Assembly (NCBI GenBank): GCA_913041415.1
Contig: CAJWHS010000023.1
Location: 1 to 33,250, forward strand
Length of the DNA stretch: 33,250 bases
Source of the DNA: an uncultured Acidimicrobiaceae bacterium
Lineage (GTDB): Bacteria > Actinomycetota > Acidimicrobiia > Acidimicrobiales > Aldehydirespiratoraceae
Reading direction: 5' to 3'
In this document: in pieces, positions 13,615 through 33,250 of the stretch
Layout of the letters: the number at the start of each line of letters is the position of its first letter
Position numbering within the stretch: the stretch's first letter is position 1
Program-made: the position numbers and the translations under genes
The notes under the pieces: generated by a model
The model's input: the letters and a program-made list of their open reading frames with translations, nothing else
Told to the model about the DNA's origin: nothing
Database searches by the model: none

Positions 13615-13620
13615 CCTCCT
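13615..13620 (-). promoter_or_regulatory. Strong Shine-Dalgarno AGGAGG for the thiolase
   Basis: AGGAGG on the minus strand lies 7 bases before the thiolase ATG and shares its first base with the stop codon of the DUF35 gene. It fixes the thiolase start and indicates a downstream gene in a polycistronic message. Confidence 0.75.
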
Positions 13621-14018: not shown

Positions 14019-14069
14019 CTCACTCCGTGGGTCGGGATGACCCAACGGTAGTTCTTGCCGGTAGGAGGA

Positions 14070-14669: not shown

Positions 14670-14691
14670 GATCGCGATCCCGAGACGGAGA

Positions 14692-15360
14692 TCAGAGGAG
14701 CTTCTCGAGATCCTCGGTCATCGCCCAACCGAAGGTGATCAGCGTGTCGCCGGCGTCGATGTCGAGGTGCGCGAACTGGGCGATGACGGCGGGATCGACA
14801 TTCTCGGGCTTCGAGCTCTCATGATCGAGCACGACCGCCTGGCTGCCATCGCCGCGGACGGTGAAGGCGCGGTCCTCGAACTTGGAGGCCCCGATGCCGA
14901 AGCGCTTGGCGAGGCGACGCCCCCAGGCCCGCTCCTCGCCCGAAGCCTTGTGATCAGGCCGCGGCACGATGTCGGTCAGGCTCTTGTAGGCCTCGAACGC
15001 CCCGGCGTCGTTCACCTGGGCGCCGACCAGGACGTCCTCGTCGGGGAAGGCAAGGACGGAGCGGCGGAGCTGATCGGTGACGACCGCCCGCAAGACCGTG
15101 TCGCGCTTGGTGTTGCGACAGACGTGGGCAGCGCCGACGAGCAGACTCGGCGTGCCGCCGATGCGCTCCAGGGTGCAGAACGAGAAGCCGCGAATCTTGC
15201 CACCCTCGCTCGCGACGGTACACAGGACCCACGCCTCGGCCTGCTTCGAAAGCATCCCCACCTCGAACGCATTGGTGGAGTCAGCGCAAAGATCCGCCAT
15301 CTCAGCGAGCTCAGCGTCGCTCAACGCTGTGCAGTCCTTGGTGTCAACCTCGATTGCCAT
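14692..15360 (-). CDS. Conserved-looking hypothetical protein, possible GNAT-like fold
   Basis: 222 residues from ATG 15360; GTG at 15378 would add six residues. I do not recognise the family. The middle part (SEGGKIRGFSFCTLERIGG, then LLVGAAHVCRNTKRDTVLRAVVTDQLRRSVLAF) resembles the strand-loop-helix layout of GNAT acetyltransferases, with RNTKRDTVLR where an acetyl-CoA loop would be, but the match is weak. The C-terminal half is acidic and Lys-containing with no membrane segment, so a soluble protein is expected. It lies upstream of the nitroreductase in the same direction and may be first in that operon. The 168 bases between it and dnaE show nothing definite. Confidence 0.6.
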   Translation of the reverse strand: MAIEVDTKDCTALSDAELAEMADLCADSTNAFEVGMLSKQAEAWVLCTVASEGGKIRGFSFCTLERIGGTPSLLVGAAHVCRNTKRDTVLRAVVTDQLRRSVLAFPDEDVLVGAQVNDAGAFEAYKSLTDIVPRPDHKASGEERAWGRRLAKRFGIGASKFEDRAFTVRGDGSQAVVLDHESSKPENVDPAVIAQFAHLDIDAGDTLITFGWAMTEDLEKLL

Positions 15361-15546
15361 GCGATGAACCCCACTCACTCGCCTCGATACAGTCCGATCA
15401 GTTTTCAGGGGGAACGCGCGATTCGCAACCTGGGCGCCTCCCTTCGTTGCGGATCAACCCGGCGCTTCGAACACACCGACGCCATTTCCTCGCGTCGTCA
15501 CCGGCGCCCGACAGCCCACCGGGCGGCGCACTGCGGGTTCTCGACC

Positions 15547-19116: not shown

Positions 19117-19124
19117 CTCGGCTC

Positions 19125-19130
19125 TCCTCC
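19125..19130 (-). promoter_or_regulatory. Shine-Dalgarno GGAGGA for dnaE
   Basis: GGAGGA on the minus strand is 8 bases before ATG 19116. dnaE therefore has a normal leader, unlike the leaderless-looking genes around it. Confidence 0.7.
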
Positions 19131-19151
19131 CGGCCGGCCGGTGACGCTGCC

Positions 19152-19181
19152 TGTGGACACCGATGTGGACGCCCTGTGGAC
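19152..19181 (-). repeat. Three DnaA-box-like repeats (TGTGGAC) in the dnaE leader
   Basis: TGTGGAC occurs on the plus strand at 19152-19158, 19164-19170 and 19175-19181. On the coding strand these read GTGTCCACA, GCGTCCACA and CCGTCCACA, differing from the actinobacterial DnaA box TTGTCCACA at one, two and two positions. They are spaced 12 and 11 bases apart, about one helical turn, so bound proteins would lie on one face. They lie 36-65 bases upstream of the dnaE ATG. DnaA binding is an inference. Confidence 0.5.
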
Positions 19182-19186
19182 GGGTT

Positions 19187-19196
19187 ACACCGGTGT
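19187..19196. promoter_or_regulatory. Palindrome ACACCGGTGT in the dnaE leader
   Basis: Perfect 10-base palindrome, nearly symmetric over 14 bases (TTACACCGGTGTGA). It sits 7 bases downstream of the TAGGTT -10 element, at or next to the predicted transcription start, a place where a dimeric repressor could act. Confidence 0.35.
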
Positions 19197-19203
19197 GATT
19201 TCG

Positions 19204-19232
19204 AACCTAACCGGCGAATCCCCGAGCCACAA
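19204..19232 (-). promoter_or_regulatory. dnaE: Predicted dnaE promoter (TTGTGG-N17-TAGGTT)
   Basis: On the minus strand TTGTGG (19232-19227) and TAGGTT (19209-19204) are separated by exactly 17 bases. The -10 hexamer is the same as the one before purL. Transcription would begin near 19197, giving a leader of about 80 bases that contains the palindrome, the TGTGGAC repeats and the Shine-Dalgarno. Confidence 0.45.
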
Positions 19233-19249
19233 GAGGGGTTTTGGCGAAC

Positions 19250-19768
19250 TCAGAGATAGGTGCCGGGACGGGTGTCGGCCCCCTCACCACCCGGCCCCTC
19301 TCCCCCGCCGGAACCGATCTGACCCCGCAAGCCCTGGAGTTGCTGCTGCGCAGCCATCTGCTGCGCGAAGAGCATTGCCTGCATGCCTTGCACCAACCCC
19401 TCGAGCCAGCCGACAAGCTGCGCTTTGGCGATCTGGAGCTCGCCCGCAGTCGGTGTCTCCTCCGTGCTGAAAGGAAGAGCAAGACGATCGAGTTCCTCTC
19501 GCAGGTCGGGACTCAACGCCCCGCCGAGTTCGTTGACCGACGTCTCGTAGATGTCGCGGAGGCGATGCCGACTGGGCTCATCAAGCTCCATCGTGCGCAG
19601 CTCCTCGAGCAGCTGCTTCATCATCGCCCCGATGCGCATGACCTTGGCCGGGTGGTCCACCGTCTCGTCGACCACCTGTTCGTCGAGATGCTCGGGATCG
19701 ACAAGCTCAACTTCGGCTCGTTCGACCAGATCGGTGCGGTCGCTCGATTTGGAATGCTGCTCGGTCAC
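19250..19768 (-). CDS. bpa: Bacterial proteasome activator Bpa/PafE
   Basis: 172-residue homologue of mycobacterial Bpa (DUF2587), the ATP-independent ring activator of the 20S proteasome. The family in Mycobacterium is about 174 residues. The predicted helical core runs from VMRIGAMMKQLLEELRTMELDEPSRHRLRDIYETSVNELG and ELQIAKAQLVGWLEGLVQGMQAMLFAQQMAAQQQLQGL (a helical ring subunit). The flexible Gly-rich tail ends in RPGTYL, matching the proteasome-docking C-terminus (GQYL in Mycobacterium). This implies that the organism has a 20S proteasome elsewhere. The start is GTG at 19768 with no clear Shine-Dalgarno. It follows the phosphatase gene after 39 bases and precedes dnaE. Confidence 0.88.
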   Translation of the reverse strand: MTEQHSKSSDRTDLVERAEVELVDPEHLDEQVVDETVDHPAKVMRIGAMMKQLLEELRTMELDEPSRHRLRDIYETSVNELGGALSPDLREELDRLALPFSTEETPTAGELQIAKAQLVGWLEGLVQGMQAMLFAQQMAAQQQLQGLRGQIGSGGGEGPGGEGADTRPGTYL

Positions 19769-19807
19769 GGGAACTCGTCTCGGTGAAAGGTGGTCAAGAA
19801 ATGATGG

Positions 19808-20908
19808 TCACGAGGTGAAGGTGAGGAGCGGTACGTGCATCTCCTCCGAGCTGAGTGAACCATGGCGGGCAACCAACCACGACGGCGTCCGGTCAGCCGG
19901 ATCCGCAAAGCTCCAGTGATCACGTGCCACAACGGCAACATCACCGAGGCGACGACGAGCCTGGTCATTCACGGTGGGCCCGAACCAACCCTCGTCGAGG
20001 ATCTGCTCGCAGGTCAGCACCCAGGCCTGTCGACCGTGGGCGTCAGCGGTCGCAGCGAAGACGTCCCGCTGACGACCCGGCTCGGCGTGCAGCCAGCGGA
20101 ACCGCCCCTCACCCGACACCTGGAAGCACAACGATGTCGCCGACGGGGTCAAGTCGAGCTCACCGTCGGGACACGACACCAGACCGTGATCGGCAGTGAC
20201 CACCAGGGCGGTGCCACGCGGCAGCATCGGCAACAGATCGGCAACCATCCGGTCGACGGCAGCCAGCTCAGCGTCGTAGTGCTCGCCGAAGCCAAACTCG
20301 TGAGCGATCTTGTCGATCCCGTCGTAGTAGGCGTACACGAACGGTTCGCCTGCAGCGACAGCTCGCCGGATCTCGACCGGCAACGTCGGCAGGGTTCGCC
20401 ATCCGTGCTGACGACCGCCGGCCTGATGGGCCCGGGTGAAACCGGTGGCCACAAACGGGGCGTTCTGCACCACGACTGGGCGCTGTCCGCAAAACGCCGG
20501 GTTCGGTTGAAACTCCTCGGGCACGATGCGCTCTCGTGCATCACCCTGCTTGGTCCTCCACGACAAAACATTCATCACGTCGTTGTCGACAGCAACGCGA
20601 TAGCCAACCACCCCGTGTTCACCGGGAGGAAGCCCGGTGGTGATCGAGGTGAGCGCTGCGCTGGTGGTCGACGGCGCGACCGTGGTGATCGAGCGTCCGG
20701 TCAACCCGTTGAGGGTCGGGGCGAGATGGGCTCGGGCCTGGAGCTGATGCCAGCCGAGGCCGTCGATGACAAGGAGCACGACTGCCGACGCATCGAGCAC
20801 CTCATCGCCGAAGAGCGGGGACGAACCCAGCTCCGGTTCCAGCAGGCCCGGCACGATCTGGGTGACACAGCCGTCGTTCCAGTCGGGAAGCACGGGAGAG
20901 GCGCTCAT
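19808..20908 (-). CDS. Alkaline phosphatase superfamily protein (nucleotide pyrophosphatase/phosphodiesterase-like)
   Basis: 366-residue metal-dependent hydrolase of the alkaline phosphatase superfamily, nearest to type I phosphodiesterases/nucleotide pyrophosphatases. VVLLVIDGLGW carries the first metal Asp (49). APSTTSAALTSITTGLPPGEHGVVGY holds the nucleophile Thr81 or Thr82. YYDGIDKIAHEFG and VVTADHG give further metal ligands. There is no convincing signal peptide, so it is probably cytoplasmic. The track starts at 20944; I use ATG 20908 because TAGCCT lies 8 bases upstream as for a leaderless gene. It is divergent from the Rrf2 regulator with only 62 bases between start codons, and upstream of bpa. 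Substrate unknown. Confidence 0.85.
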   Translation of the reverse strand: MSASPVLPDWNDGCVTQIVPGLLEPELGSSPLFGDEVLDASAVVLLVIDGLGWHQLQARAHLAPTLNGLTGRSITTVAPSTTSAALTSITTGLPPGEHGVVGYRVAVDNDVMNVLSWRTKQGDARERIVPEEFQPNPAFCGQRPVVVQNAPFVATGFTRAHQAGGRQHGWRTLPTLPVEIRRAVAAGEPFVYAYYDGIDKIAHEFGFGEHYDAELAAVDRMVADLLPMLPRGTALVVTADHGLVSCPDGELDLTPSATSLCFQVSGEGRFRWLHAEPGRQRDVFAATADAHGRQAWVLTCEQILDEGWFGPTVNDQARRRLGDVAVVARDHWSFADPADRTPSWLVARHGSLSSEEMHVPLLTFTS

Positions 20909-20916
20909 CGGAGATG

Positions 20917-20922
20917 AGGCTA
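20917..20922 (-). promoter_or_regulatory. -10-like hexamer TAGCCT for the phosphatase gene
   Basis: TAGCCT on the minus strand ends 8 bases before ATG 20908. No Shine-Dalgarno is visible. It shares the 62-base divergent region with the rrf2 promoter, so one bound regulator could affect both. Confidence 0.45.
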
Positions 20923-20957
20923 GCGACCGACAGCACCGTGGCACGGGCGTTCCGGCG

Positions 20958-20963
20958 TAGAAT
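20958..20963 (+). promoter_or_regulatory. -10-like hexamer TAGAAT for rrf2
   Basis: TAGAAT ends exactly 7 bases before ATG 20971. It is the closest match to TATAAT among the leaderless-type boxes of this window. Confidence 0.55.
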
Positions 20964-20970
20964 CAGCTGT

Positions 20971-21414
20971 ATGCGCGTCTCGACCCGTGGAGATTATGCG
21001 GCCCGGGCACTGCTCTCGCTTGCGCTCCACAGCGAAACGTCGCCCACGTCGGTCCGCGAAATCGCCGAACGCACGGTGCTCCCGCAGCCCTACCTCGAGC
21101 AGATCCTCTTGGCCTTGAAGGGCGCCGGACTCGTGCGTTCCAAGCGCGGCGTCGGCGGCGGGTACGTCCTCGCCCGGGATCCCGACGACATCAAGCTTTC
21201 CGAGATCATCCGAGCCGTCGACGGTCCGATCACTGCCGGCGACTTCGGCGAGCCCCACACCGACGGCGCCTGCGACCACGAAGGCCAGTGCGTCCTTCTT
21301 GCGATCTGGGGTGCTGCGGGTTCGCATATGCGAACCTTCCTCGACAGCTTTTCGCTCGCCGACATCGCAGGCATGTCGCAGGGCCAGCGGCCCTGGCCTG
21401 CCACCGGCGACTGA
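20971..21414 (+). CDS. Rrf2 family transcriptional regulator
   Basis: 147-residue winged-helix DNA-binding regulator of the Rrf2 family (IscR, NsrR, RsrR, CymR). MRVSTRGDYAARALLSLA opens the protein. LPQPYLEQILLALKGAGLVRSKRGVGGGYVLAR is the recognition helix and wing. The C-terminal part has only two Cys, C101 and C107 in CDHEGQC. IscR and NsrR have three, so the first Fe-S ligand is missing and a different ligand set or no cluster is likely. The track starts 19 codons upstream; ATG 20971 is preferred because of family alignment and the TAGAAT 7 bases ahead. It is divergent from the phosphatase gene. Its stop abuts the stop of rluD on the other strand with no gap. Confidence 0.93.
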   Translation: MRVSTRGDYAARALLSLALHSETSPTSVREIAERTVLPQPYLEQILLALKGAGLVRSKRGVGGGYVLARDPDDIKLSEIIRAVDGPITAGDFGEPHTDGACDHEGQCVLLAIWGAAGSHMRTFLDSFSLADIAGMSQGQRPWPATGD

Positions 21415-22338
21415 TCAGGAGAGTTGACCGAGCACTGACGAGAGATCGTCGGGTAGCGCGGCCTCGAACGACATCGCCTCATGGCTCACCGGGTGCCGGA
21501 ATGACAGTTGTGCCGCATGCAAGAACGGCCGACCCGGCTCCAGCCCCGGTCGGCCGCCGTCGTAGTCGCGATCTCCGACGACAGGATGGTTAATCGCCCG
21601 CAGATGCACTCGGATCTGATGGGTACGGCCAGTCTCAAGTCGACACTGAACCAACGAGCAGGTGACAGGCGTCTCGAACCGCCGCTCGACGCGATAGTGA
21701 GTAATCGCGCGGCGTCCGTTCTCGGTGACGGTCATGCGGGTGAGATGACGAGCCGACCGCCCGATCGGGGCATCGACCGTGCCGGCGTCAGAATCGAGAT
21801 GGCCCCAGACGAGGGCAAGGTAAACACGCTCAGGCTCGTGGGCGCTCATCTGACCGACCAACTCGACGTAGGCCTCCTCGCTGCGAGCAACGACCAGCAG
21901 GCCTGATGTGCCCCGGTCGAGCCGGTGCACGATGCCGGGACGGTGGACCTCACCGACCCGCAGGAGTTCCGGATAGCGCGCAACTAGCCCGTTTACGAGC
22001 GTGTCATCGGCCTGCCCGGCTCCAGGATGCACAACGAGGCCGGCCGGTTTGTCGACCACGATCACGTCGTCATCTTCGTGGACAACGGTGAACTCGACGT
22101 CGACTTGGGGCGCCGGGGTGGGATCATCAGGAGGCGGGAGTTCGATCGTGACGACCGTTCCGGCGTCGACCTTGCGGCTCGGCGTCGTGATCGGGCGGCC
22201 GTCGACAACGACCTTGCTCCCGACGATCAGTTCCTTCGCAAGCGAGCGGCTGATCCCAGCAATCGCCGACACGACGCGGTCGATCCGCTCGCCGTGGAAG
22301 GCCTCTGGAAGCGTCTCGATCAGGTGCTGGTCGTTCAT
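21415..22338 (-). CDS. Ribosomal large subunit pseudouridine synthase, RluD/RluA family
   Basis: 307-residue pseudouridine synthase that modifies uridines in 23S rRNA. An N-terminal S4 RNA-binding domain (ERIDRVVSAIAGISRSLAKELI, VDGRPI) is followed by the catalytic domain. DDVIVVDKPAGLVVHPG, HRLDRGTSGLLVVAR with catalytic Asp141, and RLETGRTHQIRVHL are family motifs. The ATG at 22338 was chosen because the S4 domain starts directly after it; the track's longer form is an Arg/Ser-rich shadow of the DksA-like gene. The gene lies 25 bases after that gene and probably shares its transcript. RluD specificity (positions 1911, 1915 and 1917) is likely but not proven by sequence. Confidence 0.93.
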   Translation of the reverse strand: MNDQHLIETLPEAFHGERIDRVVSAIAGISRSLAKELIVGSKVVVDGRPITTPSRKVDAGTVVTIELPPPDDPTPAPQVDVEFTVVHEDDDVIVVDKPAGLVVHPGAGQADDTLVNGLVARYPELLRVGEVHRPGIVHRLDRGTSGLLVVARSEEAYVELVGQMSAHEPERVYLALVWGHLDSDAGTVDAPIGRSARHLTRMTVTENGRRAITHYRVERRFETPVTCSLVQCRLETGRTHQIRVHLRAINHPVVGDRDYDGGRPGLEPGRPFLHAAQLSFRHPVSHEAMSFEAALPDDLSSVLGQLS

Positions 22339-22363
22339 GGCGGCCTCGCCGGCCCGTCCCGAC

Positions 22364-22882
22364 TCAGCGGCGGTTGCCGAGGCCGCCAACCTTGTACTCG
22401 ACACGCTCTGCGGCCCACGGGATCGCACGAAGGCGCTCTTGAGGGATCGCCTTCCCCGATGCGACACAGACGCCGTACGTACCGGCCTTGATGCGGTCGA
22501 GTGCGGCGTCGATCTGCTCGACGGCTTGGCGCGCCTGGTTGGACAGCGCAAGGTCGCGCTCGCGCTCGACGGCGAGCGTGTCACCCTCGCCTGACTCTTC
22601 GTCGAACTGCACGTCGCCGGGCTCGCGGCCCTCGATCAGGGCCTCGGCCTCGGCCCGGTAGGTCTCCTCGGAGTGCAAGTACTTGGCCCGCTCCTCCTCG
22701 AGACGGACCTTCATATCGCCGATGAACTTCTTGCCAAACGGCGACTTGGCCTTCTTGACGGCTTTTTTGGCCGTCACCTTCTTCGCAGGCGCCTTCTTCG
22801 CTGCGGACTTCTTCGCAGGCGCCTTCTTCGCTGCGGACTTTTTGGTGGCGGACTTCTTGGCCGCCTTCTTCGCCGTCGCCAT
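22364..22882 (-). CDS. DksA/TraR-like protein with Lys/Ala-rich N-terminal tail
   Basis: 172 residues in two parts. Residues 1 to about 50 are a histone H1-like Lys/Ala tail (AKKSATKKSAAKKAPAKK repeated). The rest is a coiled-coil DksA/TraR-type protein: FIGDMKVRLEEERAKYLHSEETYRAEAEAL, then LALSNQARQAVEQIDAALDRIKAGTYGVCVASGKAIPQERL. DksA binds RNA polymerase through its secondary channel. Here the four-Cys zinc finger is degenerate: one Cys remains (YGVCVASGK) and the second pair is replaced by AAER. The tail could bind DNA or RNA, as in mycobacterial HupB; that is inference. ATG 22882 has GAGGA about 9 bases upstream. It lies between divIVA and rluD. Confidence 0.85.
   Translation of the reverse strand: MATAKKAAKKSATKKSAAKKAPAKKSAAKKAPAKKVTAKKAVKKAKSPFGKKFIGDMKVRLEEERAKYLHSEETYRAEAEALIEGREPGDVQFDEESGEGDTLAVERERDLALSNQARQAVEQIDAALDRIKAGTYGVCVASGKAIPQERLRAIPWAAERVEYKVGGLGNRR
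22781..22840. repeat. Perfect 30-base tandem duplication in the Lys-rich tail
   Basis: CTTCGCAGGCGCCTTCTTCG plus CTGCGGACTT occurs twice back to back, 22781-22810 and 22811-22840, without a mismatch. It encodes ten residues of the Lys/Ala tail per copy. Identical third codon positions indicate a recent duplication or ongoing slippage. Confidence 0.95.
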
Positions 22883-22913
22883 TGCGCTCGTCCTCGTTTC
22901 GTCGCCGGTCCAC

Positions 22914-22933
22914 GCCTTGAACCGGCTCAAGGC
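22914..22933 (-). other. Stem-loop in the leader of the DksA-like gene
   Basis: GCCTTGA and its reverse complement TCAAGGC surround a 6-base loop; one further C-G pair extends the stem to 8. It sits a few bases downstream of the predicted -10, so it would form at the very 5' end of the mRNA. There is no U tract, so it is not an ordinary terminator. Confidence 0.4.
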
Positions 22934-22938
22934 GGCGA

Positions 22939-22944
22939 ATTGTA
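22939..22944 (-). promoter_or_regulatory. Possible -10 element TACAAT upstream of the DksA-like gene
   Basis: TACAAT on the minus strand lies about 57 bases before the ATG, in the 103-base gap after divIVA. I see no convincing -35 box at 16-18 bases. A leader of about 50 bases with a hairpin and a Shine-Dalgarno would result. Confidence 0.35.
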
Positions 22945-22985
22945 GGGCCGGAGCGGGCAATTACCGCGAATACCCCGAGGAACGG

Positions 22986-24251
22986 TCAGCGGCGGCGGTT
23001 GAACCAGGCCCGCCCACCGTCGTCCTCCCGGTCGTCGAAGAACGTCGCCAGAGCATCCTCGCCGAACTCGTCGGAACCCTCGCCGCTGGCAACGTCACGC
23101 AATTGCTCGAGAAAGGCATCACTGCTCGAATCCGGCTCAGGCTCGTCGAACAACGGGCGTTTGTCGCTCGACGACACCTCCTCAAGATCCGCAGACGTCA
23201 CCAGTAGTTCCTCAAGATCCGCAGACGTCACCAGTAGTGGCGGGGTATCGGCGGTGCAGGACTCAGTATCGTCCGACTCAGCCACGACCGGCTCGGCCGT
23301 GAGGTCGGACGCAGGCGCCTCATCAGCGACACGCAGCAAGGTGGGCTCAGCGTCAGGCATTGGGCTCGGAGCGAAGGTGAACACGTCCGCTTCGGCCACT
23401 TCGTCGGTCCGCTGCGGAGCGTCCTCAAGCAGCGGGTCATAGGTCGCCACCTGTTCCTCGTCGACCGACTCCGTCTCGGCAGCGCCATCCGAAGCAACTT
23501 CATCCGCAATGGCGACGACGCTGATGGCCTGGGTGATCTCCGACTCGGGAGCGGGCTCCGGCGCAGGGGCGCTCGAGTCAACCGCTTCGATAACGATGGG
23601 CTCAGCGATTTCGGCGACCGTGTCCTTGGGCGTCTCGAAATCGGCGGGGGCGACGACACCGCTCGTAGCGGACATTGCTGGGAAGCGGAACTGTTCAGGA
23701 TCGTCAAGCAAGTGCTGAAGCGCGGCGACGGATGCCCCAAGCACGTCGCGGGATTGCTCGAGATGCCGTTCGAGAATTGCGATGTCGTCGGTGAGGAACG
23801 CCCGATACCGCTGGAGTTCGGCGACTTCGGCGAGGACGAGTTCGCGTTCAGTGCGCACGCTCTCCTCAACGGCGGCCTCGGCTTCGGCAAGCATGCGACG
23901 ACGATCGGTTTCGGCTTCGGCGACGACAAGCGAGGCGTGGTCGTCGGCCTGGCGGCGGATCTCGGCTGCCTCGGCGTCGGCTTCTTCAATTGCAGCGTCA
24001 ACGGTGCGCTGCGCCAACAGCAGCATCTTGGTCAGGCCCCCCTCACTCGCTTCGACCGGATCGGCGCCGCTCGACCCGGCGACATTGGCCTCGGCAGACT
24101 CAACCCGACTCTGCAGTTCGGCAATCCGGCCCTGCGCAAGCGCAGCCGCCTTTGCTACTCGATCGATGTAGGCGTCGACCTCAGCAACGTCGTAGCCGCG
24201 GAAGCGCTCGTTGAACGCAATGTCTTGGAAGAGCGGAGAAAGATCATCCAT
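22986..24251 (-). CDS. DivIVA-domain protein (Wag31-like)
   Basis: 421-residue DivIVA-type protein. The N-terminal membrane-curvature domain is FQDIAFNERFRGYDVAEVDAYIDRVAKA (about 8-36). A long coiled coil follows, from AALAQGRIAELQSRVE to LQHLLDD (about 36-185), rich in Ala, Glu and Arg. The last ~230 residues are acidic, Pro/Ser/Ala-rich and probably disordered, ending in a basic AWFNRRR. DivIVA/Wag31 directs polar growth or septum positioning in Actinobacteria, which fits the place after yggT, sepF and ftsZ. The track starts at 24260. I choose ATG 24251 because TAGGAT lies exactly 7 bases ahead of it. A 30-base tandem duplication in the tail encodes LLVTSADLEE twice. Confidence 0.9.
   Translation of the reverse strand: MDDLSPLFQDIAFNERFRGYDVAEVDAYIDRVAKAAALAQGRIAELQSRVESAEANVAGSSGADPVEASEGGLTKMLLLAQRTVDAAIEEADAEAAEIRRQADDHASLVVAEAETDRRRMLAEAEAAVEESVRTERELVLAEVAELQRYRAFLTDDIAILERHLEQSRDVLGASVAALQHLLDDPEQFRFPAMSATSGVVAPADFETPKDTVAEIAEPIVIEAVDSSAPAPEPAPESEITQAISVVAIADEVASDGAAETESVDEEQVATYDPLLEDAPQRTDEVAEADVFTFAPSPMPDAEPTLLRVADEAPASDLTAEPVVAESDDTESCTADTPPLLVTSADLEELLVTSADLEEVSSSDKRPLFDEPEPDSSSDAFLEQLRDVASGEGSDEFGEDALATFFDDREDDGGRAWFNRRR
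23181..23240. repeat. 30-base tandem duplication inside divIVA
   Basis: The unit starting CCTCAAGATCCGCAGACGTC and ending ACCAGTAG occurs at 23181-23210 and 23211-23240; 29 of 30 bases agree, only the last differing. It encodes LVTSADLEE-type decapeptides in the disordered acidic tail. Confidence 0.95.
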
Positions 24252-24258
24252 GCGGCGC

Positions 24259-24264
24259 ATCCTA
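24259..24264 (-). promoter_or_regulatory. -10-like hexamer TAGGAT for divIVA
   Basis: TAGGAT on the minus strand ends 7 bases before ATG 24251 and decides between the two nearby ATG codons. It suggests divIVA has its own leaderless promoter inside the 66-base gap after yggT. Confidence 0.45.
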
Positions 24265-24317
24265 GATTCCGTAACTCATCCGATGAGGGACCGCAGCGCG
24301 GTGTTCTGAGCCGAGAA

Positions 24318-24569
24318 TCAGCAGATGATGCCTCGCAGGACCTGCACGCCGATGATGACGATGATCGGTGACAAATCGAGGGCGACGGAGCCCAGCCGCA
24401 CGGCGGGGATCGCCCTGCGCAGTGGAGCCAGCACGGGGTCGGTGACCATGAACAAGAATCCCGCAACGGTCGCCATCGACCCATTCGGGTCGAGTGGGAA
24501 CCAGCTCAGGATAATCCGAGCGAAGATCGCGAGCAGGTACAGATCGAGAAGAAGACAGATGATGAGCAC
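24318..24569 (-). CDS. YggT family membrane protein
   Basis: 83-residue integral membrane protein of the YggT family. There are two hydrophobic segments, LIICLLLDLYLLAIFARIILSWF at the N-terminus and LDLSPIIVIIGVQVLRGII at the C-terminus. Between them are SWFPLDPNGSMATVAGFLFMVTDPVLAPLRRAIP, with the typical TDP-x-LAPLRR signature. The start is GTG at 24569, 6 bases after the sepF stop. In many Gram-positive genomes yggT sits between sepF and divIVA as here. The role is unknown; links to division or to osmotic response have been proposed. Confidence 0.92.
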   Translation of the reverse strand: MLIICLLLDLYLLAIFARIILSWFPLDPNGSMATVAGFLFMVTDPVLAPLRRAIPAVRLGSVALDLSPIIVIIGVQVLRGIIC

Positions 24570-24575
24570 GATGGG

Positions 24576-25187
24576 TCACTCGAAGGCGCGGTGGGTGTCG
24601 GCGTCTGACACTTCGACATCGGCGGGCACCAGCAGGTACACCTGATCCGCAACCCGCTCCATGCCCCCACCGCGGGCATAACAGAGCCCACTTGCAAAGT
24701 CGACGATTCGGCGACGCAAGTCGCGATCGGCGTGCTGCAGATTGATGATCACTGCTTGGCCGGCCTTGAACCGGTCACCGATCAGTTGGGCGTCGTTGAA
24801 GGTCTCGGGGCTGACAGTGTGGGGGCTCGCCGCACGACTGTCGACAATGCGGACCGCCGGCGGTACCGGAGCGTTGGGGGCTGACGCCCCGACACTGAGG
24901 GCGGGACTCGGGGGAGCCGATTCGGGGCGGGACTCGCCCGGAACGACACGCACCGAGCCAGAGGGTTCAGAACGCAAAACGTTCGCAATCGGACGGACCG
25001 TCGCAATCTGAGGGCCAGGGGTGGGGTTGGCGACGGCCTTCACGGGGCGAGCGTCTTCCGACGCCGACGCGGCCTCAGCCCCGGAGCGGTCGGGACCGGC
25101 GTCGATGGGCGCGTACTCGTCGAACGAGTCGTATTCATCATCAGGACCCAGCCCGAGATAGATGAGCGTCTTCTTCAGCATGGACAC
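24576..25187 (-). CDS. sepF: Cell division protein SepF
   Basis: 203-residue membrane-binding partner of FtsZ. The N-terminus MSMLKKTLIYLGLGPDDEY is the amphipathic membrane helix. A Pro/Ser/Ala-rich linker follows to about residue 115. The C-terminal SepF domain carries FNDAQLIGDRFKAGQAVIINLQHADRDLRRRIVDFASGLCYARGGGMERVADQVYLLVPADVEV. In Actinobacteria, which lack FtsA, SepF is thought to tether FtsZ to the membrane. The start may be GTG 25187, 6 bases after AAGGAGG, or ATG 25181 two codons later; I prefer the GTG for spacing. It lies 72 bases after yggS. Confidence 0.95.
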   Translation of the reverse strand: MSMLKKTLIYLGLGPDDEYDSFDEYAPIDAGPDRSGAEAASASEDARPVKAVANPTPGPQIATVRPIANVLRSEPSGSVRVVPGESRPESAPPSPALSVGASAPNAPVPPAVRIVDSRAASPHTVSPETFNDAQLIGDRFKAGQAVIINLQHADRDLRRRIVDFASGLCYARGGGMERVADQVYLLVPADVEVSDADTHRAFE

Positions 25188-25193
25188 GATTGC

Positions 25194-25212
25194 CCTCCTT
25201 GCGGAAAGGCTA
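25194..25212 (-). promoter_or_regulatory. Shine-Dalgarno AAGGAGG and possible -10 TAGCCT for sepF
   Basis: AAGGAGG (25200-25194) is 6 bases before GTG 25187, one of the strongest ribosome binding sites in the window. TAGCCT (25212-25207) just upstream could be a -10, giving a very short leader. No -35 is clear, so the promoter part is weak. Confidence 0.45.
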
Positions 25213-25259
25213 CTCCCGTCCCCGCCGTCGTCGGTGTCATCCCCACACCTGGCGGACGG

Positions 25260-25907
25260 TCACCCGAGTCGTTCGCCAAAGAGGTCGCGGCCGATTCGAA
25301 CCATCGTGGCGCCCTCGTCAACGGCGATCTCGAGATCGGCACTCATCCCCATCGAGCACTCGTCGAGACCGAGTCGATCAACGAGGCCTCGAAGCAAGGA
25401 AAAGCCCGGGCGAGCCGCCTCCGGCTCGGCGAGCAGTGCGACCCCCATCAGACCGATGACCTCGAGCCCGACGCCGGTGGCGTGCATGACAAGATCCTCG
25501 GTGGTGTCGGGGCCGCAGCCGCCCTTGTTCTCCTCACCGGAGATGTCGACCTGAATCATCACCTTGGCACCTGGCGCTCGCTTGGCGATCTCGGTGGCGA
25601 GCTCGGGCCGATCAACGGTTTGCCACACGTCGACATGCGAGGCAAGCTGCCTAACCTTGTTGCGCTGCAGCCGGCCGATGAAGTGCACCGTTGGCGTGGT
25701 GGTGATCTCGGTGAGCTTGGCAGCCGCCTCCTGGGCATAGTTCTCGCCGATATCGTCGAGCCCGGCTGCTACAGCGGCGTCGATGGCCGAAGGACCAAAG
25801 GTCTTGGTGACCGCCACGATGCGGACGTCGGCCCCGCCCGCCGTGTCGAGACGGGTCCGGACGGTTGCAGCCCGTTCGGCGACCACCGCCGGGTCGACCA
25901 AGGTCAT
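25260..25907 (-). CDS. PLP homeostasis protein YggS (COG0325)
   Basis: 215-residue PLP-binding single-domain barrel protein without known catalytic activity, involved in keeping vitamin B6 and amino-acid pools in balance. The PLP lysine is Lys35 in IVAVTKTFGPSAI. GLDDIGENYAQEAAAK, VHFIGRLQRNKVR, MIQVDISGEENKGG, GLMGVA, LSMGMSADLEIAV-like and VRIGRDLFGER are family blocks. ATG 25907 overlaps the pgeF stop as ATGA, which sets the start; the track's longer frame is an Arg-rich shadow. A place between ftsZ and sepF is standard in Gram-positive division clusters. Confidence 0.96.
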   Translation of the reverse strand: MTLVDPAVVAERAATVRTRLDTAGGADVRIVAVTKTFGPSAIDAAVAAGLDDIGENYAQEAAAKLTEITTTPTVHFIGRLQRNKVRQLASHVDVWQTVDRPELATEIAKRAPGAKVMIQVDISGEENKGGCGPDTTEDLVMHATGVGLEVIGLMGVALLAEPEAARPGFSLLRGLVDRLGLDECSMGMSADLEIAVDEGATMVRIGRDLFGERLG

Positions 25908-26581
25908 GCCGCCACCAGCCGAGCCGCAGTGATTTGACGACCCACATCGCCGCGCACGCGATGGGAGAAAAAGCGCTCGTCTGCGGTGTCGAAACCGAGA
26001 TCGTCGACAACGTCGACACCCGCCTGGTGCAGGGCAAGCTTGGTTGCAGCAGCCATGTCGAGGGCGAGAGTACCGGCGACCGTCTCGCCGCGACATGTGC
26101 CGCCAACGGCGGTCTCAACCTGGGCGAGTTCATCGGCTCCGAACTCGTAGTGAGCCGGCCGGATGCACGGGCCGATAACCGCCTGGAGCCGGCCTGAGCC
26201 GATCATCCGCAAAGCCTCGACACTGCGGTCGACCACGCCTGCGACGAGACCTCGCCACCCGGCGTGTATCACCCCGACCGCGCGTTCGCCGACCACGACG
26301 ACCGGGACGCAATCAGCGGTCTGCACACACAGCACCGCTCCCAGCAGCCCGGTGACGGCGGCGTCGCCGTCGGTGCCGGCATACCCGCCGGGCGAGTCGA
26401 CGAGGGCGACGTCGGAGCCGTGGACCTGTCGCAGCCACGTCCATTCACCATCGAAGACACTTCGTCGACGCTCGGCGAATTTGTCGGCAAGCGCGTCGAT
26501 GCGAAAATCACCGTCATGCCGGTCGGTCAGGCAAATTTCGACCGCTGTGCCGGCGCCTGCGGGGAGTCGCCGGAAGCGCAT
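25904..26581 (-). CDS. pgeF: Peptidoglycan editing factor PgeF (laccase domain, YfiH/YlmD type)
   Basis: 225-residue protein of the multi-copper-oxidase-like laccase domain family; in E. coli PgeF removes wrongly placed L-Ser from cell-wall precursors. Metal-site motifs are LRQVHGSDV, QTADCVPV with its Cys, GVIHAGWRGL and VIGPCIRPAHYEFG. FFSHRVRGDVGRQITAARL ends the protein. ATG 26581 lies 4 bases after the ftsZ stop, and the stop overlaps yggS as ATGA. This tight set suggests co-translation with FtsZ. Purine nucleoside activity has also been reported for the family. Confidence 0.95.
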   Translation of the reverse strand: MRFRRLPAGAGTAVEICLTDRHDGDFRIDALADKFAERRRSVFDGEWTWLRQVHGSDVALVDSPGGYAGTDGDAAVTGLLGAVLCVQTADCVPVVVVGERAVGVIHAGWRGLVAGVVDRSVEALRMIGSGRLQAVIGPCIRPAHYEFGADELAQVETAVGGTCRGETVAGTLALDMAAATKLALHQAGVDVVDDLGFDTADERFFSHRVRGDVGRQITAARLVAA

Positions 26582-26585
26582 CGAC

Positions 26586-27695
26586 CTACTTCAGGAACGA
26601 CGGGACGTCGAAGTCGGGATCGCCAAGATCAAGATCGCCTTCGTCGTCGGTGGCAAACACGTCGACGATCGGCACCTCGCCGGTGGGGTCACTGCGCTCG
26701 AGCATCGGCTCTCGGCCCGGAGCTTGCCCCGTACGAGCGATCGACTCCTCCCAGCGATCGAAGCCGGCAGCGATCACGGTGACACGGACGTCGTCGCCCA
26801 ACTCGTCGTCGATCACCGTGCCGAAGATGATGTTGGCGTCCGGGTGGGCAACACCGTGGATGATCTCAGCTGCCTCGTTGACTTCGAGCAGGCCGAGATC
26901 CGGACCGCCGCAGATATTGAGGAGAATGCCGCGGGCGTTCTCGATCGATGCCTCGAGCAGCGGACTCGAGATCGCAGCGCGGGCAGCGGCAATCGCACGG
27001 CCCTCACCGCTGCCGTGACCGATCCCCATGAGCGCCGAACCGGCGTCGACCATGACGGCGCGAACGTCGGCGAAGTCGGTGTTGATCAAGCCGGGCGTGG
27101 TGATGAGATCGGTGATGCCCTGCACACCCTGCAGGAGGATCTCATCGGCCATCTTAAAAGCGTTGAGCATCGACGTGTCGTTCGTCGAGATCGACAGCAG
27201 CCGATCGTTGGGGATGACGATGAGGGTGTCGACCTTTTCCTTGAGCTTCTGGATGCCCTGCTCGGCTTGGACGGAACGGCGACGACCTTCGAAGGCGAAC
27301 GGTCGGGTGACGACACCGATGGTGAGCGCACCCTGGCTCTTCGCGACCTCGGCGATCACCGGTGCGGCACCCGTGCCGGTGCCACCCCCCTTGCCAGCGG
27401 TGATGAACACCAGGTCGGCCCCGGTGAGCGACTCGCGGATCTCGTCGACGTGCTCCTCTGCGGCTTGGCGTCCGACCTCGGGGTCCGAACCCGCACCGAG
27501 CCCGCGCGTGAGGTCGCGACCGATGTCGAGCTTTTCGTCGGCGTCGCTCATGAGCAGCGCCTGGGCGTCGGTATTGGCAGCGATGAACCCGACGCCCTTC
27601 AACCCGGCGTCGATCATGCGGTTGACGGCGTTGACACCGCCGCCGCCGACACCGACGACCTTGATGACAGCCAGATAGTTCTGCGGATCAGACAT
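26586..27695 (-). CDS. ftsZ: Cell division protein FtsZ
   Basis: Tubulin-like GTPase that forms the division ring; 369 residues. [17 protein letters not shown] near the N-terminus, GGGTGTG at 103-109 (GTP signature), [11 protein letters not shown] and the T7 loop [11 protein letters not shown] are present. The C-terminal linker is short (~35 residues) and acidic, and ends in FDVPSFLK, the conserved peptide bound by SepF and other partners. ATG 27695 is preferred; GTG 27698 directly before it is equally open. ftsQ lies 115 bases upstream, and that gap holds a hairpin. No ftsA is present, as expected for Actinobacteria. Confidence 0.98.
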
Positions 27696-27738
27696 CACGT
27701 TGGGATCCCCCGTGCGAGATCAAGTAGAGCACTGCCCG

Positions 27739-27758
27739 GGCACGCGACAGTGCGTGCC
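27739..27758 (-). other. Hairpin in the ftsQ-ftsZ gap
   Basis: GGCACGC and GCGTGCC form a perfect 7-pair stem with a 6-base loop. GCACTG (27729-27734) and CAGTGC (27748-27753) can form an alternative stem that excludes the first. A TACGGT (27775-27770) just upstream could be a -10, so the hairpin would fall near the start of an ftsZ leader of about 68 bases. There is no U tract. Confidence 0.4.
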
Positions 27759-27813
27759 GGAGTGACGAGACCGTACACCCGAACCCCACGGATTTTGGGG
27801 ACGCCCACCCCGC

Positions 27814-28620
27814 CTAACCCGTAGGAGCAGTCGTAGCAGGCTCTGCGCACTGGGGGGAGCGCTTCAGGACGGGGTTCGCGCCGACCCGCACATCGATCTC
27901 ACAAATCCCTGCCAGATCGACCTGGTCGAGCACGGAGCGAACCGCCTCGTACTTGGTGTCGAGATCACGATCGTCGCCCATGATCGCGACGACACCGCCG
28001 ACCAGATCGAGCCTGAGCAGCGGTGTGCCGGCTCCTGCGGAGTCGATGTCGAACGTCTTGACCCACGGTGCGAGATCGAGCGGCATGGCGTCGATCAGTT
28101 CGAGTGCCGGGAGGGCAAGGGTCTGCACATCGCCGAGATCGCCGGCGGGCACGAGCGTGATGACGGGCAGGTCGCCGACGGCGGAGGTTTCCGAGCGGGC
28201 GATCGCAACCGCTTCAGCGTCGATGACGACCCCGCTGCCGTCATCGACGGGCAACAGAGCGACACCGATGCGGCGGGTGACCACGATCTCGACCGTGCCG
28301 GGCCACGCTCGGTCGACGGCAGCCGTCTGGACCCACGGCAGCGCGACAATCCCCTCGGCGGCGCCATCGAGGTCGAGATCGAGCATCGGCGTGCCGATGA
28401 CCAAGCCGGATGCCTCAGCAACCTGATCGGCCTCTGCGCCGAATGCCCCATCGATCTCAACGGTGTCGAGATCGAAGACGGCCGAGCGGCTCAGGGCATA
28501 CCCGCCACCCGCAAGGGCGACGACCACGACGATGCCCGCGAGCACGCGAAGACGCCGTCGTCCTTCGGCGCGACGGACGGAAATTCTCCGCTGCCTGAGC
28601 CGAGGATCGATCGATGTCAC
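27814..28620 (-). CDS. ftsQ: Cell division protein FtsQ
   Basis: 268-residue bitopic divisome protein. A basic cytoplasmic N-terminus (RLRQRRISVRRAEGRRRLR) is followed by one membrane segment, VLAGIVVVVALAGGGYAL (about 26-43). The POTRA domain starts at VFDLDTVEIDGAFGAEADQVAEASGLVIGTPMLDLD, and ALPWVQTAAVDRAWPGTVEIVVTRR is the typical FtsQ/DivIB block. GTG 28620 overlaps the murB stop as GTGA. FtsQ bridges early and late divisome parts together with FtsB and FtsL. The Cys-containing C-terminal tail is short and Pro/Thr-rich. Confidence 0.94.
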   Translation of the reverse strand: MTSIDPRLRQRRISVRRAEGRRRLRVLAGIVVVVALAGGGYALSRSAVFDLDTVEIDGAFGAEADQVAEASGLVIGTPMLDLDLDGAAEGIVALPWVQTAAVDRAWPGTVEIVVTRRIGVALLPVDDGSGVVIDAEAVAIARSETSAVGDLPVITLVPAGDLGDVQTLALPALELIDAMPLDLAPWVKTFDIDSAGAGTPLLRLDLVGGVVAIMGDDRDLDTKYEAVRSVLDQVDLAGICEIDVRVGANPVLKRSPQCAEPATTAPTG

Positions 28621-29558
28621 GACGACCAGGGCACCTCGTCGTCGGTGAAACCGACAAGATGGGTCTCGGGTTGCAGCACAACGCCATGGGCGTACTCGAC
28701 CAAGGTTTGGACCTCGATCATCACCTGGAGCACATCGGCCGCAGTGCCTCCCTCATCGGCCTGGATAAAGTTCGCATGCTTCACCGACACTTCTGCGGTG
28801 CCGACCCGAAGCCCCTTCCCTCCCGCAGTGTCGATCAGTCGGCCGGCACTCTCGCCGTCGGGATTGGTGAACACCGAACCCGCGTTCTGACCCCCGGGTT
28901 GGTTGTCGCGGCGCCACTGGACGATCTCGGCCATCTCGGCCTTGCCCTTTCGTTCATCACCCGGGCTGAGCGACAGCCGGCAACCGACGACGACTTCATC
29001 GGTGCGGAGTGCCGAGTGGCGATAGGACAGTTGGAGTTCCTCAGCGGGGACGATGCGCCGCTCCCCCGCTGCGAAGTCGACGACGTCGGCGTCGAGCAGT
29101 GCGTCCTTCATATCGGCGCCGTGGCCGCCAGCATTCATCCGAACAGCGCCGCCGATCGAACCCGGCACACCGACGGCCCACTCGAAGCCGGCGAGGCCGT
29201 ACCCGACCGTCGTTCGCGCGACGACCGGTAGTTTTGCCGCTGCGCCGGCGATCACGATCGTCTCATCGACCACGTTGATCGCCGCGTAGTCGCCGGCCAT
29301 GTGTATGACGAGGCCGTCGAACCCGCAATCGGCGACGAGCATGTTGCTGCCACGACCCAGCGTCATCACGGGAATGCCCGTGCCGGCAACGGCGGCGGCA
29401 ACTGCGCTCAGGGTCTCGTGATCGTCGACGACAACCATGGCGGCGGCGCGGCCGCCAACCCGATACGTCGTGAGTGCGCCCATCGGGACGTCGACCGCGA
29501 TCTTGTCGCCGACGTCGTCCATCAATCGTTCGATCACCGCAACGAGGACGGGGTTCAT
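28617..29558 (-). CDS. murB: UDP-N-acetylenolpyruvoylglucosamine reductase MurB
   Basis: FAD-dependent reductase that makes UDP-MurNAc, the second committed step of peptidoglycan synthesis; 313 residues. TTYRVGGRAAAMVV opens the FAD domain, then LGRGSNMLVAD (67-77) and WAVGVPGSIGGAVRMNAGG (127-145). NAGSVFTNP contains the proton-donating Ser, and the C-terminal part has VSVKHANFIQADEGGTAADV. ATG 29558 overlaps the murC stop as ATGA, and its own stop overlaps ftsQ. Cytoplasmic. Confidence 0.97.
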   Translation of the reverse strand: MNPVLVAVIERLMDDVGDKIAVDVPMGALTTYRVGGRAAAMVVVDDHETLSAVAAAVAGTGIPVMTLGRGSNMLVADCGFDGLVIHMAGDYAAINVVDETIVIAGAAAKLPVVARTTVGYGLAGFEWAVGVPGSIGGAVRMNAGGHGADMKDALLDADVVDFAAGERRIVPAEELQLSYRHSALRTDEVVVGCRLSLSPGDERKGKAEMAEIVQWRRDNQPGGQNAGSVFTNPDGESAGRLIDTAGGKGLRVGTAEVSVKHANFIQADEGGTAADVLQVMIEVQTLVEYAHGVVLQPETHLVGFTDDEVPWSS

Positions 29559-30937
29559 GCCGCGCCCTTATGCTCGAGTCGTCCGATCACCTGACCCGGC
29601 AGGCCGGTCAGATCACCGGCGCCCAGCGTGAGGCAGAGATCACCGGGGCGTAACCGCTGGGCCAGCCATCCGGCGGCGTCGTCGAGACGCGGCATCCAGG
29701 CCACCGTGGACCACGGATGAGCGTCGAGCACGGCATCGACAATGAGCTTGCCGGTGATGCCGGGGCGCGGGGTCTCCCCCGAGGCATAGATGTCGGTGAC
29801 CACGAGAACGTCAGCACCGCCGAACCCGTGAGCGAAGTCCTGCCAGAGCGCCGCCGTTCGGCTGTAGCGATGCGGCTGGAATACGCACACGATGCGTTCC
29901 CATCCGCCGTCGGTGGCAGCTGCGAGCGCAGCCTCGACCTCGGTGGGCAGATGCGCGTAATCGTCAACGAAGGTCACCCCGTCGATCTCGCCTCGGAACT
30001 CGAAGCGCCGAGCGACACCGCCGAACCGGGCGAGTGCCATGGCAGCTGCGGCGGCCGAACCACCGGCGGCGATCGTCGCCACCAAGGCCGCCGCTGCGTT
30101 GCGGGCGTTGTGCATGCCCGGGGTCGGCAACTCGACGCGAGCCACCTCCACCCCATCGTGCCGGATGGTGAAGGCCACTGACGCTCGGTCCGTCTCCATG
30201 TCGACTATGCGGTAATCGGCGTGTTCGGCCGTGCCATAGGTAATGCCCGGCACTGCGCTCGCAATCTGCATCGCCCCGGGATCGTCTGCACAGTAGATCG
30301 GTGTGGTGGCGGCATCGGCGAACTGGACGAACGCCGCCATGAGTTGCTCGGGGTCGTTGTCATAGGTTTCGAGATGGTCGGGTTCGACGTTGGTGACGAT
30401 CGCGACCTCCGCACCGAGCGACAAGAACGTGCGGTCGGACTCGTCGCCTTCGATGATGAACCACTCCCCGTCAGCCCAGACGGCACCGGAGCCGATCTCG
30501 TTGACGTCGCCACCGATGATGAACGACGGATCGAGGTCGGCCTCCATCATCGCCATAGCGAGCATGGAACTCGTGGTGGTCTTACCGTGTGTGCCGGCGA
30601 CGACGATCGAGCGACGCTCGGCCGAGATCGCCGGGAGGATGTCACTGCGGCGCAGCACCGGGATCTGGCGCTCGTTCGCGGCGCGAACTTCGGGGTTGTG
30701 CTCAGGGATCGCCGTGCTGATCGCCACGAGATCGGCGGCGCCGACGTTGGCGGCGGCGTGACCGACGTGGATCTCCATGCCGGCGACCCGTAGTCGTTCG
30801 GCGACCGGACCATCCTTCAGATCGCTGCCGGTGACGGTGTGCCCCATGCGGTGGAGCACGTCGGCGATCGCGCCCATGCCTGCGCCACCGGCGCCGACAA
30901 GGTGGATGTGGTGGGCTTCGCTCAGGTCCGGGGTCAT
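29555..30937 (-). CDS. murC: UDP-N-acetylmuramate--L-alanine ligase MurC
   Basis: ATP-dependent Mur ligase adding L-Ala to UDP-MurNAc; 460 residues, full length. HHIHLVGAGGAGMGAIADVL is the N-terminal Rossmann motif, GTHGKTTTSS (115-124) the ATP loop, and EGDESDRTFL with NVEPDHLETY the central domain. The C-terminal domain has RRFEFRGEIDGVTFVDDYAHLPTEV and QPHRYSRTAAL. DDYAHLPTEV is the MurC form of the DYAHHPTE motif, with Leu in place of the second His. ATG 30937 overlaps the murG stop as ATGA. Confidence 0.97.
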   Translation of the reverse strand: MTPDLSEAHHIHLVGAGGAGMGAIADVLHRMGHTVTGSDLKDGPVAERLRVAGMEIHVGHAAANVGAADLVAISTAIPEHNPEVRAANERQIPVLRRSDILPAISAERRSIVVAGTHGKTTTSSMLAMAMMEADLDPSFIIGGDVNEIGSGAVWADGEWFIIEGDESDRTFLSLGAEVAIVTNVEPDHLETYDNDPEQLMAAFVQFADAATTPIYCADDPGAMQIASAVPGITYGTAEHADYRIVDMETDRASVAFTIRHDGVEVARVELPTPGMHNARNAAAALVATIAAGGSAAAAAMALARFGGVARRFEFRGEIDGVTFVDDYAHLPTEVEAALAAATDGGWERIVCVFQPHRYSRTAALWQDFAHGFGGADVLVVTDIYASGETPRPGITGKLIVDAVLDAHPWSTVAWMPRLDDAAGWLAQRLRPGDLCLTLGAGDLTGLPGQVIGRLEHKGAA

Positions 30938-31240
30938 CGTGGTGTTCCCTCCGGGGAGGCGGAGTTGGGGCGAGGTCGCGACGCATGCTGCTCGAGAAGA
31001 TCGACAACCGCTACCGCCGCGTCGGGACGGGCCACCGACGAGGCCGCCGCCGCCATCGACGCCAGCCGATCGGGGTCGTCCACCAGGCGGTCGACCTCTG
31101 CGGCGAACCGGTCGGCGTCGAGTTCACCGTCGACAACAAGCACCGCAGCACCTGCGTCGACGAGCGCGCGCGCGTTGGCGGTCTGATGATCGCCGGGTGC
31201 ACCCGGCAGGGGGACGAGCACGCTGGGCAGTCCAGCGACC
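30934..31240 (-). CDS. murG: MurG glycosyltransferase, C-terminal fragment only
   Basis: About 100 C-terminal residues of the lipid II-forming GlcNAc transferase (full length about 360). VAGLPSVLVPLPGAPGDHQTANARALVDAGAAVLV is the UDP-GlcNAc binding region typical of MurG, followed by the C-terminal helices to EGTPR. The stop overlaps murC as ATGA, as in an intact cluster. Upstream of about 31240 the MurG frame is lost: the DNA instead encodes alanine racemase in another frame, and no N-terminal MurG domain is present. The ATG at 31245 in the ORF track lies on the foreign side and is not a real start. Loss of an essential gene points to a false contig join. Confidence 0.85.
31221..31240. other. 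Junction between two sequence sources
   Basis: About 20 bases, CGCTGGGCAGTCCAGCGACC on the plus strand. On the minus strand they read in one frame as the MurG residues VAGLPS and in another as the Alr residues GRWTAQ. Both neighbours look natural up to this word and unnatural past it. Base composition and codon use change here. Confidence 0.7.
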
Positions 31241-31996
31241 CCCATAACCGACGGACTCGCCGGTTGGCACGTCGCGCAGAGCGATCACCGAACTGGAGAA
31301 TCGCATTGCAGGGCGAAGCGGAGCAGGATTCGGTAGCCCTTTGGTTTGTCCCCCATACACCGCGTAACCCACCCGCACCCAGTCGCTGGACGCTGACAAC
31401 CCTCGCTGCATTGCTGCCGAGTTGTGCAGGCTCGTAGTATCCTGGCCGCCGCGAACCGTTTGTTCCCAGCTTTGGAGTTGTGCTTGGATGAGTGCGTTGT
31501 CTGGTTCTTCGGCCGACGCCAGATGGGACATTGCCGTGATTGCACCGATGCCATACGACAGCAGGGTGTCGCGAATGCCCGCGTATCGCTCGGCTGTAAA
31601 TCCCAGCCGATGCATGCCGGTATCGATCTTGATCCACGCCTGAGACAGATCTGCCCCCAGCGTTTTGCACCACTCGATTTGCTCGTCGGAGTGTATGACC
31701 GGCCAAAGATTCAGTTTGCCGGCCAAAGCAAGATCGCTGGCAGTGTGGGGCCCCTCCAGAATCAGTAGCGGGGCACTGACGCCGGCTTCGCGGAGAGCCA
31801 CGGCCTCTTCAGTAAACGCGACCGCAAGGGCATCTATGATGGATTCAATATGTTGCGCGACCTGAACCGCGCCATGACCGAACGCGTCGGCTTTCACCAC
31901 GGCCATGAACCGATGCGCTGCCAGCGATCCCCGGAGGGTGCGAATGTTCTCACTGATGGCTGCGAGATCGATGTGAACCGCTGTCGTGCGTGACAT
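31221..31996 (-). CDS. alr: Alanine racemase, 3' end lost at the junction
   Basis: N-terminal ~258 residues of a PLP alanine racemase (family about 360). The PLP lysine is Lys35 in VVKADAFGHG (usual KAxAYGHG, here with Phe for Tyr). Later marks are KIDTGMHRLGF, MSHLASAEEPDN, SLHNSAAMQ and RVGYAVYGG. The reading ends at SVGYGGRWTAQR, just before the segment that would hold the catalytic Tyr. The ORF track continues to 31124 with an Arg-rich nonsense tail (TRRSSDRQRARARRRRC), which is MurG DNA in the wrong frame. ATG 31996 shares its A with the stop of the aminotransferase (TGATG). Base composition is lower in GC than the rest of the window. Confidence 0.88.
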
Positions 31997-32856
31997 CAGG
32001 GGCTGCTGAAACGGTGTTGCTGAAACAGTTTTTGTGCAGCTGACCAGCGGGACCCCGGGCGGCCATCATTGACTGGCTTGCCATCCAAAGAGACTACAGG
32101 CACCAGTTCTTTGGTAGAGGAACTCAGCCAGATTTCCGACGCGCTGAGTACCTCGCCGCGGCTCACCGGGCGGACCTCCACAGGCCAGTCTGTATGCGCC
32201 GCCAGCAGTTCAAGGCATTGGCGACGCGTGACTCCAGGCAGTTTCTGATGATCCAGTTCAGGAGTTAGGATCTTGTCGCCGCATACAATAAAGACATTGC
32301 AGACCGCCGCTTCGGTGAGTTCATCTCGCTCGTTAAATAGCAGTACTTCCTCAGCCTGCTCTTCAACCGCCTCCATCATGTGAAGCACGTTGCCCAGCAA
32401 AGCCGTCGATTTAATATGGCAGCGTCCCCAACGCTGGTCTCGTCGGGTCACTGTGCGAAAGCAGGAGGCTGTCTCGAGTGATCCGTCAGAGGGTGGACTG
32501 ATGTCAAACGCGTAAGCGAAGACCGTCGGCAAAGGATGCTCAGGAAAGACGTGTTGACGCTTTTCCACCACCCCGCGGGTAATTTGCAGATATATTCCGA
32601 GATTGCCGGCGCCATTACGCGCGATGATTTCTTCGAGGATGTTGATCAATTGCTCGTCAGAATGCGGCTGCGACAAGGCGATACCATTCAGTGACTGATG
32701 GAGCCGTTCTAAATGGTATTGCAAGGTCACCATCTTCCCGTCATAGCAGGGAATGACCTCGTAGACGCCATCGCCGAACAAAAATCCTCGGTCCATTGGC
32801 GAGATGCGGACGTCGGCGAGGGGGGCGTAGTCACCGTTGAGGTAGGCGATGGTCAT
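31996..32856 (-). CDS. dat: D-amino acid aminotransferase (class IV PLP aminotransferase)
   Basis: 286-residue fold-type IV PLP enzyme interconverting D-alanine plus 2-oxoglutarate and pyruvate plus D-glutamate. ISPMDRGFLFGDGVYEVIP is the N-terminal family block. The Schiff-base lysine is Lys149 in RWGRCHIKSTALLGNVL, where the RxH/KS-x-xLLGNVL pattern points to D-amino-acid rather than branched-chain specificity. ELTEAAVCNVFIV binds the PLP phosphate. ATG 32856 overlaps the upstream D-glutamate cyclase stop as ATGA, and the stop couples to alr. Codons are far less GC-biased than in the left 31 kb. 4-amino-4-deoxychorismate lyase is an alternative reading but fits less well. Confidence 0.88.
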   Translation of the reverse strand: MTIAYLNGDYAPLADVRISPMDRGFLFGDGVYEVIPCYDGKMVTLQYHLERLHQSLNGIALSQPHSDEQLINILEEIIARNGAGNLGIYLQITRGVVEKRQHVFPEHPLPTVFAYAFDISPPSDGSLETASCFRTVTRRDQRWGRCHIKSTALLGNVLHMMEAVEEQAEEVLLFNERDELTEAAVCNVFIVCGDKILTPELDHQKLPGVTRRQCLELLAAHTDWPVEVRPVSRGEVLSASEIWLSSSTKELVPVVSLDGKPVNDGRPGSRWSAAQKLFQQHRFSSP

Positions 32857-33250
32857 GCCCGTTCTCCTGATGTCAGCGTATCGTGAACCGCTTGAGTGAG
32901 ACGTTCACCTTCGGCGGCTGGAAAGCTATCTTCAGTGGGCGTCGCTTCACCGGTCACGCCATCAACCGCACCACGCGCCACCAGATATTCCAGATCTTCT
33001 CGAATGCGATGTTCAGCGCTGTATTCCGGGTCTGATAGCCAGCGAGCGACGGTGCAAAGCGCATAGGCTGCCCAGTTGGAGACGTCGGCTACCACCAATT
33101 CGTCACAGGTACTGACCGAAGGCTGAATATTGAGCTTCGACAAGCTGTTCAGCACGTTTCCCATCCCAAGTTCGTTGCCGCCATCACCAATGGCAATGGT
33201 AGGGCAGTTAGCCTGCACAAGGTAGGGTTCTGCGCCGCCGCATCGTGCAG
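32853..33250 (-). CDS. D-glutamate cyclase-like protein (DUF4392), 5' end beyond window
   Basis: The frame is open to the right edge. The track's GTG at 33218 is internal, because upstream codons read RCGGAEPYL in register with it and match the family. TIAIGDGGNELGMGNV is the signature of DUF4392, whose mammalian member (DGLUCY) converts D-glutamate to 5-oxo-D-proline reversibly. DELVVADVSNWAAYAL follows, and about 132 C-terminal residues are visible. Together with dat and alr downstream this makes a D-amino-acid operon: Alr and Dat form and use D-Ala and D-Glu, and the cyclase removes D-Glu. The enzyme function is taken from the family; specificity here is untested. Confidence 0.82.
   Translation of the reverse strand, partial: ARCGGAEPYLVQANCPTIAIGDGGNELGMGNVLNSLSKLNIQPSVSTCDELVVADVSNWAAYALCTVARWLSDPEYSAEHRIREDLEYLVARGAVDGVTGEATPTEDSFPAAEGERLTQAVHDTLTSGERA

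Follow-up and report, generated by a model that had tools for sequence, protein, structure and literature searches.

The stretch of DNA analyzed here (the window) is a complete contig, C23, of 33,250 bases, one of 143 contigs in a 2.68 Mb actinobacterial draft genome rated 96.85% complete and 0.38% contaminated. Read on the minus strand from its right end, the contig carries a D-glutamate cyclase-like gene, a class IV aminotransferase gene, alr (alanine racemase), murG, murC and murB. The last two, murB (28617-29558, minus strand; TIGR00179) and murC (29555-30937, minus strand; TIGR01082), are actinobacterial and intact, both scoring above the model cut-off, and congener matches cover the murC region. 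The actinobacterial murG is represented by its 3′ part (30934-31239, minus strand), the last ~101 codons, which align with positions 273-352 of the 353 positions of TIGR01133. It meets the 5′ part of an alr gene (31219-31996, minus strand; ~260 codons, TIGR00492 positions 2-271 of 369) in a joining word of 21 bases (31219-31239; GTCGCTGGACTGCCCAGCGTG on the minus strand). An initial annotation of this DNA had MurG cut to its last ~100 residues and Alr to its first ~258, in good agreement with these profile matches. Besides alr, the foreign part carries two more genes: a complete class IV aminotransferase gene (31996-32856, minus strand; PF01063), likely a D-amino-acid transaminase (dat), is followed by the C-terminal part of the D-glutamate cyclase-like gene (32853-33250, minus strand; PF14336 positions 175-286 of 291), which is cut by the contig end. 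The best NCBIfam matches of the dat candidate are all D-amino-acid transaminase models, each below its curated cut-off.

To the left of the join, the window is actinobacterial. Its matches to three congeners, at about 90-93%, all stop at 31239; the murG 3′ part itself shows 92-94% protein identity to these three. Two congeners (G001 and G003) match positions 1-15100 in one piece, and the matches of the congeners, taken jointly, cover almost the whole of 15002-31239 at 87-93%. No further foreign segments were seen in the window when positions 1-31239 were matched to congeners in this way. The segment 22749-22880, which has weaker copies elsewhere in its own and related genomes and was considered as a dispersed element, turned out to be minus-strand coding sequence, repetitive and rich in lysine and alanine, with no match in Rfam.

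To the right of the join, the DNA comes from the Halieaceae. When relatives of the alr gene were sought in one genome from each species, they turned up in Halieaceae draft genomes, the two best at 92% (L014) and 91% protein identity. The first of these (isolate name ERR599006_bin.26) matches the window in one piece of 2,032 bases from the contig end to position 31219, at 95.0% DNA identity, and five others (L015-L019) match the same stretch at 79-92%. The Halieaceae matches start at 31219-31221, and in all six genomes alr runs on past the point where the window switches to murG. Positions 31241-33250 had no match in four congeners, while the same kind of search matched two Halieaceae genomes, used as a positive control. 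The separate search of both sides that the initial annotation had proposed thus returned different phyla, actinobacterial congeners on the left and, on the right, Halieaceae gammaproteobacteria, pointing to a marine member of that family as the source. The actinobacterium has a complete alr gene of its own on another contig (C11). As a side observation, alr, the D-amino-acid transaminase gene and the D-glutamate cyclase-like gene adjoin in six Halieaceae genomes with 79-95% DNA identity throughout, and this conserved arrangement suggests that the trio may form a cluster for the supply of D-amino acids, perhaps D-glutamate.

GC content falls from ~67% on the left of the join to ~56% on the right and third-position GC from 0.72-0.81 to 0.53-0.65, bearing out the rightward drop in GC and codon use noted earlier. 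A broken host gene immediately next to foreign genes that differ from it in base composition would fit a real horizontal transfer, in which a Halieaceae alr-dat-cyclase segment integrated into, and broke, the actinobacterial murG. This reading is extremely improbable, for reasons found on both sides of the break. The segment 31219-33250 contains no mobility gene, only alr, dat and the cyclase-like gene up to the point where the contig end cuts it. Moreover, murG is normally an essential gene, and a search of the draft genome with the TIGR01133 profile found no second full copy.

The join can be placed to the base. The congener and Halieaceae matches overlap in exactly 21 bases, 31219-31239, which are read in different frames in murG and in alr. 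Immediately outside this word, the window has the Halieaceae base at 31240, unlike all three congeners, and the murG base at 31218, unlike L014. Inside it, the window is fully identical to L014, while murG of the three congeners differs at 3-4 silent sites. On the murG side, the 21-base identity is therefore inferred rather than read from the species' own intact gene. The word does not occur at a second place in the draft genome, even with up to two mismatches allowed. The initial annotation had placed both breaks in a shared word of 20 bases, 31221-31240, that made sense in both genes in different frames. The shared break and the two frames are confirmed; the limits are not, and should be shifted to 31219-31239, giving 21 bases.

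Twenty-one bases is a common minimum word length among short-read assemblers, and a minimum k of 21 is among the settings with which MEGAHIT is run (PMC12607879). Calculated from the sizes and base composition of the two genomes, about six shared words of 21 bases would be expected by chance for such a pair; the join therefore needs no biological cause. It should be noted that this figure rests on an analytic estimate, since a direct count between the loci examined, which found no 21-base word besides the join, drew on a sample too small to give a rate.

The true continuation of murG was located on another contig of the assembly. This contig, C67 (L009), carries positions 8-219 of the murG model together with ftsW, murD and mraY, which is the order expected of a cell-wall gene cluster; the congeners show the same order along 6-7 kb of matching DNA. 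The expectation that murG should be intact with ftsW nearby is thus supported by the position of this other half beside ftsW and by the congeners, six out of eight of which have murG whole or nearly whole. With G001 as the reference, a gap of 120 bases separates the murG sequence on C67 from that on C23. C67 ends inside murG in a second false join, to a congener-like hrpA fragment: its start (L009:1-174) is 98% identical to hrpA of the congeners G001 and G002, but only 91% to the window's own hrpA copy at 9763-9936. From L009:154, where the match to murG begins, to L009:174, where that to hrpA ends, the two overlap by 21 bases, the same word length as in C23.

The murG sequence next to this second join has a peculiarity of its own. 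The 246 bases directly at the join (L009:154-399) are 100% identical to G001; the next longest run identical to G001 is 82 bases and mean identity is ~91%. Because this long run stands next to a G001-like hrpA fragment, the comparison suggests that the end of C67 may derive from a G001-like congener that was present in the sample. The 246-base identity can be read either in this way or as a recent exchange of murG between the species.

The two halves of murG together also weigh against the transfer reading. Had a Halieaceae segment been inserted into murG, its far end or further Halieaceae DNA would be expected to face the other half, which instead faces the hrpA gene of a congener. In addition, ~120 bases of the target are gone, and at either break in murG the overlap is exactly one word of assembler size. 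Insertion is rejected because the two halves face unrelated sequences of two organisms through joining words of equal length, in line with the earlier view that an integration destroying an essential gene was the less likely explanation. A recent genuine transfer of the Halieaceae D-amino-acid cluster into the cell-wall cluster of some cells, with the loss of murG, is just as hard to credit.

A chimeric DNA molecule that arose during library amplification could also have joined the two genomes before sequencing, with the assembler merely following it. Amplification chimeras do form at short shared words as well, but two joins in one gene, both of exactly 21 bases, are what a fixed word length gives, and a rare chimeric molecule alone would not yield a contig extension of 2 kb. 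We consider this origin very unlikely.

The best explanation, to which we give a probability of about 0.97 on the basis of these sequence comparisons, is that C23 is an assembly chimera rather than a biological feature, with positions up to 31239 derived from the actinobacterium and positions 31219-33250 from a gammaproteobacterium of the Halieaceae, whose DNA was presumably present in the same sample. The chimeric contig joined at a k-mer-sized repeat that the initial annotation had proposed is thus upheld by the different phyla of the two sources, whose matches have exactly 21 bases in common, and by the second 21-base join on C67. In the course of events that we envisage, a de Bruijn-graph assembler with a smallest word of 21 would have lost the true path inside murG, either because the graph was tangled with that of a co-occurring congener or because coverage was low, and would then have passed from the actinobacterial murG into the Halieaceae alr through the word common to both. 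The joining is an ordinary assembly error. In the cell, murG most likely lies intact between murC and ftsW, and the actinobacterium is likely to lack the Halieaceae genes.

Breaks at this gene are not confined to the present genome. In five of the nine genomes of the genus (G000, G001, G002, G004 and G007), a contig breaks off inside murG or no more than ~500 bases away (the murG contigs of the last four are L114, L115, L117, L127 and L128), and one further genome, G005, lacks murG. Such a contig end at murG was found in 2 of 20 other members of the family (Fisher p = 0.009, computed post hoc after the pattern had been noticed). G007 likewise has its murG divided between two contigs, one of which (C73) ends in 175 bases with no murG match; by sequence, this end looks like another false join. 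murG is thus a recurrent spot of assembly trouble in the genus, possibly owing to a stretch that is nearly identical between co-occurring species.

Read as one genome, C23 would wrongly give the actinobacterium a broken murG as well as D-amino-acid genes of the Halieaceae. The warning that the last 2 kb would mislead anyone taking the window as a single genome was well founded, positions 31240-33250 being of Halieaceae origin. C23 should be cut at 31219-31239, with 31240-33250 dropped from the genome and the word itself counted as ambiguous; the join is useful only as a warning on the contig. The case also illustrates that relatives alone, with no need of reads, suffice to fix the end of a chimeric contig to the base, since the overlap between the two sources' matches is exactly one assembler word, and that such joins persist even in a draft genome with estimates of 96.9% completeness and 0.4% contamination.

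Compared with a horizontally acquired, gene-interrupting insertion, C23 has in common that a broken host gene stands next to foreign genes of another composition. It differs in that the murG halves on C23 and C67 face different sequences and part of the target is lost, in that no mobility genes are seen in 31219-33250, and in that the overlap of the flanks has the size of an assembler word. The closer likeness is to the inter-genome chimeric contigs of de Bruijn-graph assembly, where k-mer sets common to related species cause tangled graphs and chimeric contigs (PMC7299287). In both cases, two species are found in one contig, the switch occurs at a common word, and the join adjoins a stretch common to related species. 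Nothing essential sets C23 apart from these contigs except that its other side comes from another phylum, and for this reason its joining word is a chance match rather than a conserved homologous stretch.
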